Assembly: GCA_034401795.1 (NCBI GenBank)
Contig: CM067366.1
Span: 80,485,647-80,549,646 of the forward strand
Source: Chaetoderma sp. LZ-2023a
Lineage: Eukaryota; Mollusca; Caudofoveata; Chaetodermatida; Chaetodermatidae
Length of the DNA stretch: 64,000 nt
Direction of reading: 5' to 3'
Shown here: in pieces, positions 31,801 through 40,800 of the stretch
Numbering within the stretch: position 1 is the stretch's first letter
Layout of the letters: each line of letters starts with the position of its first letter
Program-made: the position numbers and the translations under genes
Notes under the pieces: model-generated
Database searches by the model: none
The model's input: only the letters and a program-made list of their open reading frames with translations
What the model was told of the DNA's origin: nothing

Positions 31801-34800
31801 TTTTCATACAGTTTCAGAAGTTTAAGTGCCTTAAACGCAGAAAAGCGTATAGGGATGAGCTGGTCTTTTGACCTCGCCTCCCTCCCGCCGAATTCACTGT
31901 CGAATTCTGGCAATATCAAAAGTATTAGGGAGGTAAGTATACTCTTGATGTGAAATAAACGAAATCAAGGATTTCTTTTTTCACGAGAGAGTTGATACTT
32001 ACCTCCCTAGATACGGACCCGGCCTCTCCACCCCACAGAGGCTCGGTCTTCAGGCTCTTTATAGTTGCATGTGTATCAGCCAATAAATTAGTCAGAGGAA
32101 GTGCTAGTCTGCGCATGCGCGGTGGTGGGGCTGGCATCCGCCAGACTACGCTCTGACTCCCTGCCCAGTAGGGGCACCTAACTGTTTTAATCTGAGTGTT
32201 TATTGAGTGAAAGCCAATATTTAGCAATATCAAAAGTATTAGGGAGGTAAGTATCAACTCTCTCGTGAAAAAAGAAATCCTTGATTTCGTTTAATAAGCC
32301 TTTACAGTGGTTTTGTGAAAATGTCCATTTGCAGGTCAAGAGAAGACTATGTTTGAAATGTTGCCATTTGAAATAGAATGACTAGCGCAATAACCAAACC
32401 ATCGTCATTCCAGTCGGTTTTCACAAATCGTCTTCTCTTGGCCTGCAAATGGATATTCAGCAAGTAAATGTTTTATCGTGATCATTAAAGGCTCCTGTCA
32501 AATGGTTTTAATCCTAAAATAGGGCTCCGGAATGGTAACCGAGCCAGTCATTCCCATGCTAAATTTTCAAACGATATGTGTCATTTACTAATATAAGCAC
32601 CAATTTTTCATTTTGTTGACCAATTTTGATCATGAAATTGTTTATTTAATTTGAAATAAGTTACTTATGAAAATTCATTAGCGTACAGTCAAACATTCTT
32701 AAGCCACATTAGGGAAAGACAGAAATTAATTTTTATTTTTATTACATGTTAGTAAAAATGCTTTTAACCCTTACCGTTCTGATGTCAATATGTTATCATT
32801 TGCTGCGTCGATAGCAAAGAATTGGATGTACATTTTTCAACAATTTTGGTCGACAATGTTGCTGTCAATGACAGCAACATCTTCCACCAAATTTGTTGAA
32901 AAATGAACACCAGCTCGTCTTTTAATTTAACTAGAAAATTAAAATTTTTAAGGTTTATTGGTCTTTAAATTGTAGTTCTTTAAGACAGGTGGTCTACTGT
33001 TGCAGGTCGAGTGCATAGTGAATGATAGTGATGTATTCAGACAATGACTAATGTTTATTAAGGCTATCTTTAAAGTATTTTTTATTTGTGGTCACCAATT
33101 TAATTCATGCCATCTTCAAACTGAGTGAAAGCGGTACATCACATTTGGGTCTGTCTGTTCAGGGCTGTATCTTGGAAACTACTGATCTAATTTAACTCAA
33201 CGTTTTAATACCAGAACAAAAAAGACAAAAAATGGAATCCGATTGCTTATGTGTGAAATATATTATACCTGTGGTTTAGTAGACTAATTTTCTCTTGAAT
33301 TTTTATAGTCAAATAAAGAAAAGAATTTAATTTATATGTATATAAAATAATTTTATTGGAGGCTCCCTCAAAAAAGATTTTTCTTGCGAGTCTTTGGGAT
33401 ATGTTATGGCAATGTAGGATGATCATAAATGACAATTTTTTAAAGGAAATCAATCGCACCTTGGCTTATACTAACCATTCAGACGATAGAATTTGCCACC
33501 CATAATCCATCCATGACATTTTAGCATTTTATTGTGCCGTCAATAAAAGACATTCAGTCTTTTGCAGCTAAATGTTGATACATTTCTACAGCCTATGATG
33601 GCTGTCATGATTCACTTTTCAACCAATCAGAAAAAACCTAACCTATTTGCCTCGGTATATGCGCTCAATCGTAGAGGTGCCAGATATAGTTTGGCAATGT
33701 GATATAAAATTTTGAAACAAATTTGATGAAGTTGTTGCTGTCTATTGCGATAGGCAGTAACAACTTCCAGTCAAATTAGTTTCAAAATAGTCAACAGGAT
33801 GAGTATTGCATAATAAAGAATGTAATGTATTGGCACTTACATGACATCACACACTATCGCTTGAGGAGACAAAATGGTAGCGATTGCTATTCAACATTTA
33901 CGTGATATTACAAAGCAGATAATTGTGATACGGATAAGGGAATGTAACAGGATCTAAATGATATGGAATCTATAAACTATAATCTATCGGTACAACACAT
34001 CATTTTAGATAAGATAGGATCTCTTTAAGGATCGACACTACGTGGGTTGAATTCGGGTTTGTCCTCGCAGTACTCCGACCGGAAGTATCACATGATTGCT
34101 TTACATATCTACGCATGCGCACACTTACTCTCGCTTGAAGGTGGAGTAATCAAGTAGCATGATACGAATTTGTACCTCGACAACATATCCAAACTTTAGG
34201 ATAGGTATCTCTGTGTGCACATGTACTACTGAATGCTTTTCCCACAGGTTGTGTAGGACATTTATTCTGATAGATGCAATGATAGGTGTTAATGAGCAAG
34301 ACCAAATTGGCATTGCAATGATGGAGGAATTCAAAATACCATATACTGTAAGTTTCCTTGCTGTATATAGGTTTAACCTTTTAACTCGCAAATTTATTCA
34401 AGAAAATTTCTGATAGAAAATGTCCATTTGCTGATGAAGAGAAGACAATTTTAGAAAATTTACCACTGGAATGACTGGCTCTGTTATCAAGCCAGTCATT
34501 CCAGTTGTAAGTTTTCAAAAATTTTCTTCTCTTGGTCTGCAAATCGACATTTATCAAGACCACTGCAGAAGCTGTTTTTGGCTGGTATGAGTGTTAAAGG
34601 GTTAACACTTACACCGGCCAAATCAGCTTCTGCAGAATGTCTATTTGCAAGCCAAGAGAAGATTATCTTTGAAAATTTACTACTAGAATGACTGATTCGA
34701 TAACCGAGCCAGTCATACCAGTGGTAAATTTTTTTAAATAGTCTTGGTCTGAAAATTGACATTTCCTATGAGAAAGTTGAAATGTTATTGATCAAATTTG

Positions 34801-37800: not shown

Positions 37801-40800
37801 GACGTATATACTGTAAGTTTGTCATGAAAGCTTAATTGATGACGGACTAAGCGTTGTTGAATGACTTGTACAACAACTTGTATGTCTTTACTATTTAATA
37901 AACATGCTCTTGAATATTTTGAAACTGATTCGACTGGGCACTGTGTTAGCAACAGTACCCAGTCGAATTAGTTTCAAAATATTCAACAGAGCTTACCCGT
38001 ATAATTTTCTGAAAATTGATAGTCAGGGAGTTAGGGGTAGATCTATCCCAGCACGGCCGAAGTGTGGGTGGAACTTAGCTGAAGATGGGCAGGGCATAGC
38101 TAAAACTGGATTCCTCCATTGGGTAATTTTTCAGACCAGACTATAAGCATTTTATGAACAAATCGCTTCATTTCTAATTTGAATCCTATCAAAATTTTTA
38201 GATTTACTACTTAGATTTCCATATTTGACCAAAAAAGTGTTTGTATTTCCACCAAAAACTTTCATATATTTCATCTTCCTCTTTCAAATACTTATGTAGC
38301 AAATGAAGGATACACATTGTCTTGTTTGAGAAATGCCTATTGCTGTAATCCGTGACAGTGATTCTAGTGAGAAATTTTTTCACATATTCTCATATGTCGA
38401 CAAATATAGGTTTCTCAGTACCATTGCAGAAGCCATTTCTTTTTAGCTGACCTGATCATTAACCCTTTCACCGACGAATTCCCAATATCTAATTTTCACG
38501 GTAACCAGACAGGAAAGCTGTAATATTTTGAAATTAATTTGACTGGAAGACATTGCTGCCTTGGGCATCAAGGTCTTCCAGTCAAATTAATTTCAAAATA
38601 TTCAACAGAATACGTTTTATATCGTAAAGAGTTTAGTTTCTCAGGGATTTTGTCGATGAAAGGGTTAATGTTTCAAGTGACTTATAATAAGATCATATCT
38701 GGTCATTCAAGACAAGAGTAGCTACTTGTAAAGTACAGTACAGCTCATGAATACCTTAACATGGTTCCAAAACAAAAACAGAAACACGTTAATTAATACA
38801 ATTTTGAGCACAATCTAAGAAATGTTGTGTTGAATGTTTGTGACTTAAATTGATTGAAAGGCAGCAATGTCTTCCAATCCAATTATGTTCAAAATATTCA
38901 ACAGTACATTTTTTTTTGCCTTGGAAATATGTTATGTTATTTCTGAGCTGTACTGTGGTTTACGATTTATAAAAATCTTTTGTGCTTAACCCTGTAACAC
39001 TCACAGTCCAGACAAATCCAATTTGATCTAGGAAATATCCTGTTGAATATTTTGAAACTAATTTGACTGGAAGCTGTTGCTGCCGGTTCCAGCCAAATTA
39101 GATTGAAAATATTCAACGACATGTATTTGGCTGTCTTGAAATTGACACACTAGAATTTTAATGTTTAAGGGTTAGTACTAGTTGTGACTATCATCATTTT
39201 AGCTTGAAAATGACATTCCACATAATTGATGCCAAAATAGGACCCACTCAAAGTGACGATGCATTCCATGCGAAGCTGAACGAGTTTGGAATCCCGTTTA
39301 CTGTAAGCATTCTAATCATTGATTGAAAACAAATGAACACCTGACTTAATTAATTTAGTTAATGTACTTAATTAAATAATTTCAAAATTACAGACAAACT
39401 TATCTTAAGCAATCACATTAGAGAGCACTAAATGGTCACTTTGAAAAGCATGTGGTCGCCAAAGTCAGGTGGTCAATAATTACAGGTGGATTGTTAATCA
39501 AGTCAGTTGCCATAGTAAACTCCTCGTTCACTAATTATTATTAACTCACCTGCCCAGAGTTGCCACGTAAGCCTATAGATTGCCCATGGCAATCATCTGT
39601 CCGGCATCCGGCCATCGACTTTTTCTTTAAATGACTTCTCAAGAACTGCTCGGCCAATTTCAATTATGTTTGGCAGGAAGCATCCTCAGGGCATGGAGAT
39701 CCAAGTGGCCGGTGGCCATCTTGAATTTTGGCTGATTTTTAGTAACATCTTTAAAAATCTTCTAGTACGAAACCGCTCGGGGAATCGATTCAGAACTCAT
39801 GAAACATCATCTAGGGCAAGAGATAAGCCAAGTCTGTTCAAGAAAACTTGATTGACCAAATGGTTCGGTGGCCATCTTGGATGACCTAGTTTTCGCACAA
39901 AGGACTTCTCCAGAACTGCTGACGGAATCGCGCCAAAATTTGGGAGATATACTTAAGGAGTAAGGGCCATTAAAGTTTGTTAAAGGGAAATTGATACGTA
40001 AAAAACATGGCTGCCGTGGACCAATCAAAATCTAGAGCGTTTGGCAGCCAGTTTAGATTTTTCTATTTGATGGATTTTGAAGCTGAAATTAATTTTATAT
40101 AGGCTTTTGGGGATGCTGATTTCAATTTTGCCACTTTCAAAACTGTTGGATAAACAGTTTGGCCGCCATCTTGGATCTTTTTCCCGCCAAAAACTCCCAT
40201 ACAAAAGAAATGTGAAATTTTTAATGTCTTCTTGAGAACTACTTGGTCGGTTTCAAGTATATTTGCAGGAAACATCCTTAGGCCATAGGGATCCAGGTTT
40301 GTTTATAGGAAGCCGATCGGCCAATTTGGCCAGCAGCCATCTTGGATTTTGCCTGATTTTTTAGAAACATTTTTTTAAATCTCGAATCGATTCAAAACTC
40401 ATGAAACCTCATCTGGCCAAGTTTGTTCAAGAGAACTTGATCGACCAAATGGTTCAGTGGCCATCGAAAAAACAACTCCAGAACCACTGAAGAGATTGGG
40501 CCGAAATTTGAGAGATGTGATTATGGCTTAAACGCCATTAAAGTTTGTACATGGAAAGTTGATACATCAAAAATCATGTCCGCCATGAATCAATCAAAAT
40601 TTAGCATTTTTGGCAGACGTATTTTCTGCAAAAATCTTAGACAATCATAAAAAGACTATGAATTAACCGGTGGGCCAATTTTAATAAATCTTGGCTAAAC
40701 CTTCTTCACAGAAATTAGATTGTTAAATTTTTCCAGTTGTCATCTCATTTTTAGCTCACCTGGCCTAAAAGGCCAAGTGAGCTTATGCTGTGGCGACCGT

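Follow-up and report, generated by a model that had tools for sequence, protein, structure and literature searches.

Does the gene for the GTPase GTPBP8/EngB in this mollusc specify one protein or two? The window, by which we mean the whole 64,000-nucleotide stretch of Chaetoderma sp. LZ-2023a DNA analyzed here (assembly GCA_034401795.1, contig CM067366.1, positions 80,485,647 to 80,549,646 of the forward strand), contains a complete GTPBP8/EngB gene with two versions of its fourth exon, 4a and 4b, which a sequence-only reading had taken to be mutually exclusive. We hold with high confidence that 4a and 4b are a real and ancient exon pair inside one gene, and that they are most likely mutually exclusive. 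Support comes from other molluscs, which have a conserved class of b-type exons, and from Physella acuta, whose annotated isoforms X1 and X2 are the clearest case of one exon being used at a time. These molluscs probably make two forms of a protein that is usually described as one, from what is apparently an undescribed alternative exon pair in a gene for which we found none described.

The exon pair and its reading frame

The gene lies on the + strand (13351-48604) and was rebuilt with seven exons, both copies of exon 4 being counted; either splice choice gives a protein of 337 amino acids. Isoforms a and b score 144.7 and 145.4 bits respectively on the EngB family model TIGR03598, both above its curated equivalog cut-off of 124.45. 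Exon 1 supplies a long N-terminal extension (a second in-frame ATG lies upstream of the exon 1 start, at 13240), and the EngB motifs G1, G3 (DMPGYG), G4 (TKID) and the C-terminal G5 region are present in exons 2, 3, 5 and 6. No G motif falls in exon 4, in agreement with the earlier claim that the swapped segment lies before G4 and leaves the nucleotide-binding motifs in place.

The anatomy first described for the pair held up on re-examination: both exons are exactly 100 bp long, enter in phase 2 and leave in phase 0, have good splice sites (AG/GTAAGT for 4a, AG/GTAAGC for 4b) and align over 33 residues without gaps at 15 identities (15/33 residues, 54/100 nt), and the neighboring exons end where they had been placed (junctions 24223/34248, 24223/39203, 34347/45298 and 39302/45298). 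The two are adjacent internal exons of equal length and phase, flanked by GT-AG introns and encoding homologous segments, which are among the features by which PMC3228551 and PMC5740500 recognize mutually exclusive exons. When profiles of the a and b classes, built from other proteins only with the window left out, were scored on the 2094 six-frame fragments of the window, the top two fragments for each profile were 4a and 4b, each scoring best with its own class. Scores for 4a were 64.7 bits (a profile) and 26.1 bits (b profile), and those for 4b 36.0 bits (b profile) and 17.4 bits (a profile), with the next-best fragments far lower at 9.3 bits (a profile) and 7.4 bits (b profile).

Joins from exon 3 to exon 5 through 4a and through 4b are both open, and exactly one copy is needed for the full-length frame. 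As the sequence-only reading had worked out, a 4a-4b join reads eight codons (LENDIPHN) and then TGA, and skipping both copies gives a single K (AAA) and then TGA; exon junctions lie 73 and 192 nt 3' of the first stop and 115 nt 3' of the second. In vertebrates, nonsense-mediated decay (NMD) acts on stops more than about 50-55 nt upstream of a junction, and because of this rule both-exon and no-exon transcripts are predicted, from the sequence, to carry premature stops that make them NMD substrates. Each productive mRNA would then take either 4a or 4b and yield one of two full-length GTPases, with the frame acting as a filter that would remove errors.

The earlier wording, that exclusion is "enforced by reading frame", is right in that the wrong transcripts are non-productive, but it is too strong, as the frame only filters and does so as a general property of such exons. 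The rule follows automatically because the duplicated exon has phases 2 in and 0 out. Among human mutually exclusive clusters, 377/629 have lengths not divisible by three (PMC5740500), so that joint inclusion is likewise non-productive; this is a general rule, and hence the frame rule is not special to GTPBP8.

One gene with an old exon pair

To place the two exons among their relatives, we used 179 GTPBP8 proteins, the union of the best 120 of 7492 and the best 120 of 7997 homologues retrieved with the two full-length isoforms as queries (up to 8000 candidates) from a database clustered at 90%. A b-type exon 4 is present in 14/179 of them, 12 with b alone and two with both types (P0129 and P0124). 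By best score 13/179 are b-type, the fourteenth being P0124 by virtue of its second, b-type copy; the profiles behind both counts include the b sequences that they score, and leave-one-out scores were computed separately. In the profiles, trees and window comparisons P0124 served as an a-type row, through its a segment. The b-like exon that the sequence-only reading had proposed to look for in related molluscs is thus present, in protein records, in bivalves and gastropods (clams, freshwater mussels, scallops and snails), the ten named genera being Mya, Mercenaria, Potamilus, Pecten, Mizuhopecten, Physella, Biomphalaria (3 records), Bradybaena, Arion and Plakobranchus. Within this sample the b type is confined to molluscs and unlabelled records, and most of the 179 follow one animal-wide pattern, the a type; no annelid or brachiopod is named among them. 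The two unlabelled b-type records (P0013 and P0121), of the "lgn" kind that we take to be assemblies of public reads, are contigs of 1275 and 953 bases with a whole open reading frame and no introns. They look like transcripts, because such small contigs hold the whole reading frame of an intron-rich gene.

The b class has its own consensus, about NLKMTFILIDGKVGMT..D.........I..C. At exon-4 position 4, R is present in 157/166 non-b rows and in 0/12 b rows; M at position 25 is found in 165/166 against 1/12, E at 27 in 159/166 against 1/12 and Y at 33 in 161/166 against 2/12, while C at 34 is found in 11/12 b rows. Both classes have D10, G14 and D19, which occur in 12/12 b rows, the window's 4b included, and in at least 165/166 others.

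If 4b came from a GTPBP8 paralogue, complete or fragmentary, the b exons would form a clade of their own, and so they do: in a tree of exon 4 (41 hand-picked rows, 34 columns) the 12 b exons, with the window's 4b inside, form one clade (support 96/86) with a single a/b change. A paralogue should also sort the remainder of the protein. In the rest-of-protein tree (38 hand-picked rows, 203 columns; the rows of both trees were drawn from the 179 proteins and the window, with P0134 and P0129 in neither), the a/b labels need 10 changes against a mean of 9.6 with shuffled labels, and a single b clade on that tree is rejected (approximately unbiased test, p-AU = 2.65e-5). Sisters of opposite type in it are Potamilus/Sinanodonta, two unlabelled relatives, Mya/Dreissena, Mercenaria/unlabelled relative, Pecten/Argopecten, Physella X2/X1 and Biomphalaria/Bulinus. 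The combination of one b clade in exon 4 with labels scattered over the rest of the protein therefore indicates that the pair is old and belongs to a single gene. Since bivalve and gastropod b exons cluster together, the duplication can be no younger than the split between these groups, which lies deep in the Cambrian.

Individual pairs of proteins make the same point at closer range. The Physella isoforms X1 and X2, which score 133.2 and 126.2 bits on the EngB family model, are identical at 257/257 positions outside the exon-4 segment and at 8/34 within it, which is difficult to reconcile with two genes. Sinanodonta (a) and Potamilus (b), which we take to be unionids, share 129/144 core positions and 10/34 inside exon 4. 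In two gastropod gene models both exons stand in one gene, a before b, which also speaks against a paralogue.

Window-by-window comparisons over 31 mollusc or unlabelled proteins, with the Chaetoderma window left out, locate the difference precisely. The a/b contrast is maximal (0.172) at residue 238, precisely where exon 4 begins, and does not exceed 0.004 in any of the 126 windows off exon 4. The a/b labels derive from exon 4 itself, and label-free clustering served as the control: it recovers the split of 20 a and 11 b exactly in the 15 windows that start between 231 and 259. In strength the split at exon 4 (up to 0.186) does not stand alone, as windows elsewhere reach 0.169. What is unique is that the partitions of the exon-4 windows are uncorrelated with the rest of the protein, whereas those of windows off exon 4 do correlate with it (0.026-0.072).

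An EngB-family search of the species' own genome points the same way, as the host-type candidates with loci are exons 2 and 3 of the window and other GTPases. A second host-type EngB G1 exon was not found among the own-genome EngB candidates with loci (31 matches, the 11 weakest without a locus); the other host-type GTPase matches carry IGYPNVGKSS (twice on C11), VGYPNVGKSS (C1) and VGDSGVGKST (C12). A paralogous origin of 4b is largely ruled out by the rest-of-protein tree and this search together, and we regard it as very improbable.

As an observation on the assembly itself (2.44 Gb, 2753 contigs), it includes contigs with long uninterrupted bacterial-type GTPase frames (C18, C19 and C20), with a full bacterial-type EngB at C19:269722-270279; such contigs are probably symbiont or contaminant.

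Exclusivity, the state of 4b and the choice of exon

Several observations weigh against a mutually exclusive pair that is in use in Chaetoderma. The exon-4 tree is based on only 34 columns, and in it the window's 4b is a long branch (1.41); this copy also ends in T, not in the near-universal b Cys (C in 11/12 b exons). Among the listed proteins, only the a type was found for Solemya, Dreissena, Haliotis, Patella, Gigantopelta, Octopus, Saccostrea and several others, although this is not proof that b is absent from them, because clustering at 90% can merge the two isoforms of one species. Two of the 179 records, Biomphalaria glabrata P0129 and Plakobranchus ocellatus P0124, hold both types in frame. 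Finally, we infer the splicing of 4a and 4b in this species, and its regulation, from the genomic sequence.

The two double records cut both ways, placing both exons in one gene yet doing so in gene models that use both, and they would be expected if 4a and 4b were ordinary cassette exons, free to enter the same mRNA. As in the window, a precedes b in each, with a linker of 7 residues in P0129 (KVMIYFS) and of 9 in P0124 (FPLCYIFSV). These linkers resemble the translated ends of the intron before 4b, which points to faulty gene models or to occasional splicing at an acceptor further upstream. Joint inclusion at the normal junctions of the window, by comparison, meets a stop after eight codons with both downstream junctions still to come, and the other 177 proteins have no second exon-4-like copy of at least 15 bits. 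Exclusivity is not absolute in gene models; we consider ordinary cassette behavior highly unlikely.

The long branch and the missing final Cys could alternatively mean that 4b has decayed into an unused copy in this lineage, the pair being real in other molluscs. Decay is hard to square with an open frame, an exact length and two retained splice sites. The acceptor of 4b has 11/17 pyrimidines, the same as 4a. In leave-one-out scoring against the b class, the other 11 b exons span 28.3-58.2 bits, and 4b falls between these extremes at 40.5. In a simple neutral simulation, frame, length and splice sites all survive 1 substitution event per site in 1.7% of runs without indels and in 0.015% of runs with 5% indels. 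We therefore think it unlikely that 4b is a relic, if somewhat less so than the cassette and paralogue explanations, and continue to read 4a and 4b as a probable working pair.

It is probable that the choice between the two exons would be made by regulated splicing, because two other mechanisms are excluded: all introns are GT-AG, leaving no U2/U12 incompatibility, and the 4855 bp between 4a and 4b are far above the spacing of under about 50 bp that gives steric exclusion. Competing RNA structures in the 4a-4b intron had been proposed as something to look for, and inverted repeats are indeed dense across 34418-39124, many of them alike. A choice made by such structures, in the manner of the docking and selector pairs of Dscam, would fit the 26 inverted-repeat pairs of at least 22 nt within 2 kb found in 33900-39700 and a hairpin at 39042-39117 with 31-nt arms, which ends 85 nt upstream of 4b. 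Many of these repeats share sequence with each other, like dispersed elements, and regulation by proteins is equally likely; we accordingly regard an RNA-structure mechanism as a doubtful candidate.

Table 1. Exons of the GTPBP8/EngB gene and the intron between the exon-4 copies, in window coordinates.
Feature	Position	Strand	Remarks
Coding exon 1	13351..13833	+	N-terminal extension to ..SHDLPE; open frame, donor GTATGT; last part aligns with mollusc GTPBP8s
Coding exon 2	21325..21423	+	G1 P-loop GRSNVGKSS to SKTP; EngB family match in own genome at C8:80506965
Coding exon 3	24093..24223	+	GHT..., G3 VDMPGYG, switch II and next helix; phase 2 at end; EngB match C8:80509739
Exon 4a	34248..34347	+	100 bp; a-type, the animal-wide type of the beta4/alpha3/start-of-beta5 segment
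Exon 4b	39203..39302	+	100 bp; b-type, alternative to 4a; inside b clade of exon-4 tree
Coding exon 5	45298..45416	+	MILTKID (G4) to FLL; phase 0 at start
Coding exon 6	48523..48604	+	First codon split with exon 5; carries stop
Intron 4a to 4b	34348..39202	+	4855 bp; many inverted repeats

The introns are, in order, 7491, 2669, 10024, 4855 (4a to 4b), 5995 and 3106 bp long. A 37-bp minisatellite at 13814-14611 (21.6 copies, 95% matches) begins inside the end of exon 1, and its unit includes the end of that exon and the splice donor (LPE|GTATGTGT), giving about 20 tandem donor copies; the frame is kept by the first copy only, and the sequence beyond reads into TGA. The intron between exons 3 and 4a holds, on the strand of the gene, a retroelement at 26591-31378 whose layout is DIRS-like, with a reverse transcriptase/RNase H frame overlapped by one that resembles an integrase (weak match). 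Downstream of the gene lie open frames that by eye resemble parts of this element (55946-58683), a reverse-transcriptase-like frame with a weak RVT_1 match below cut-off (50556-51326) and, at 61564-63707, a 41-bp tandem repeat of 52 copies.

The swapped segment and its meaning

Exon 4 encodes a 34-residue segment directly after switch II, aligning from about residue 105 of the bacterial homologue YsxC, and by the fold of the family presumably comprises strand beta4, helix alpha3 and the start of beta5. Because this strand, helix and half-strand precede G4, the exchange keeps the nucleotide-binding motifs and replaces a neighboring surface; P-loop, switches, G4 and G5 would be common to both isoforms, the difference being confined to these 34 residues. 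In B. subtilis YsxC, switch II spans residues 75-103 and the protein binds the 50S subunit with its most basic face (PMC12560758), and human GTPBP8 acts in assembly of the mitochondrial ribosome large subunit (mt-LSU) (PMC11229512, PMC10654211). These are members of the same GTPase family with the same role in large-subunit assembly. Isoform a, which keeps the animal-wide consensus, presumably has the standard role in mt-LSU assembly. Isoform b represents an old derived class, nearly always Cys-ended, in which the framework residues D, G and D are kept and R4 and the MxEE..PYV face are replaced. To judge from its residues, the loss of this face suggests a changed partner contact or timing, not a lost GTPase function, and b would work with another partner or contribute to mitoribosome assembly under particular conditions.

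We also considered whether b is generally closer to bacterial EngB. The window's a segment matches seven bacterial structures, and mixed results for b on these rule the idea out: b scores higher than a on 3pqc, 8qua and 1sul, lower on 5ucv and below threshold on 4dhe, 7szs and 1pui, all three of which the a segment matches. The lower score of the Physella b isoform on the family model (126.2 against 133.2 for a) contradicts it as well.

The sequence-only reading knew of no described isoform pair of this kind in the family. We found no description of a GTPBP8/EngB exon pair in the literature, as covered by titles and abstract openings with most subscription papers outside that scope, nor a paper linking GTP-binding protein 8 with molluscs; database gene models of other molluscs, however, already carry such isoforms. 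The word "isoform" is absent from the main text of PMC11229512 and PMC10654211, as are "splice" from the former and "splicing" from the latter; the YsxC paper (PMC12560758) was not searched for these words.

The closest parallels come from other mitochondrial proteins. In C. elegans, exons 6a and 6e of coq-2, both 134 nt long, are mutually exclusive, and helminths, annelids and molluscs have homologous exons (PMC7434440). As with GTPBP8, this is a mitochondrial enzyme with equal-length exons not divisible by 3, similar splicing in molluscs and a swapped part of the enzyme core; the gene is a different one, and its switch has a shown function (rhodoquinone versus ubiquinone synthesis). The oyster alternative oxidase (AOX) forms AOXA and AOXB arise from a duplicated exon 10 (PMC5589949), again in a mollusc mitochondrial protein with one conserved and one derived copy. 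Those exons differ in being terminal and chosen through an alternative 3' splice site, with a shown shift in expression under air exposure, and their duplication was suggested by its authors to be oyster-only. A functional precedent is offered by human RCC1L, where V1 and V3 are splice forms of one mitoribosome assembly factor that associate with different ribosomal subunits (PMC7423155). RCC1L belongs to another protein family, its isoforms share the N-terminus, and duplicated exons are not described in the abstract.

GTPBP8/EngB is a widespread large-subunit assembly GTPase, treated as one protein in PMC11229512 and PMC10654211. A second version of the segment next to switch II is separately conserved in bivalves and gastropods, and the segment therefore probably has two distinct selected functions; the a/b pair offers a natural separation-of-function tool for probing this surface. 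It is conceivable, though we think it rather unlikely in this full form, that the exon switch gives molluscs two modes of mitoribosome large-subunit assembly, or gives b a new partner, that together with coq-2 and AOX it forms a set of mitochondrial splice switches adapting these organelles to low oxygen or sulfide, and that it has persisted since the Cambrian. Taken together with coq-2 and the oyster AOX, the GTPBP8 pair suggests that duplicated exons are a recurrent route by which molluscs tune their mitochondria.

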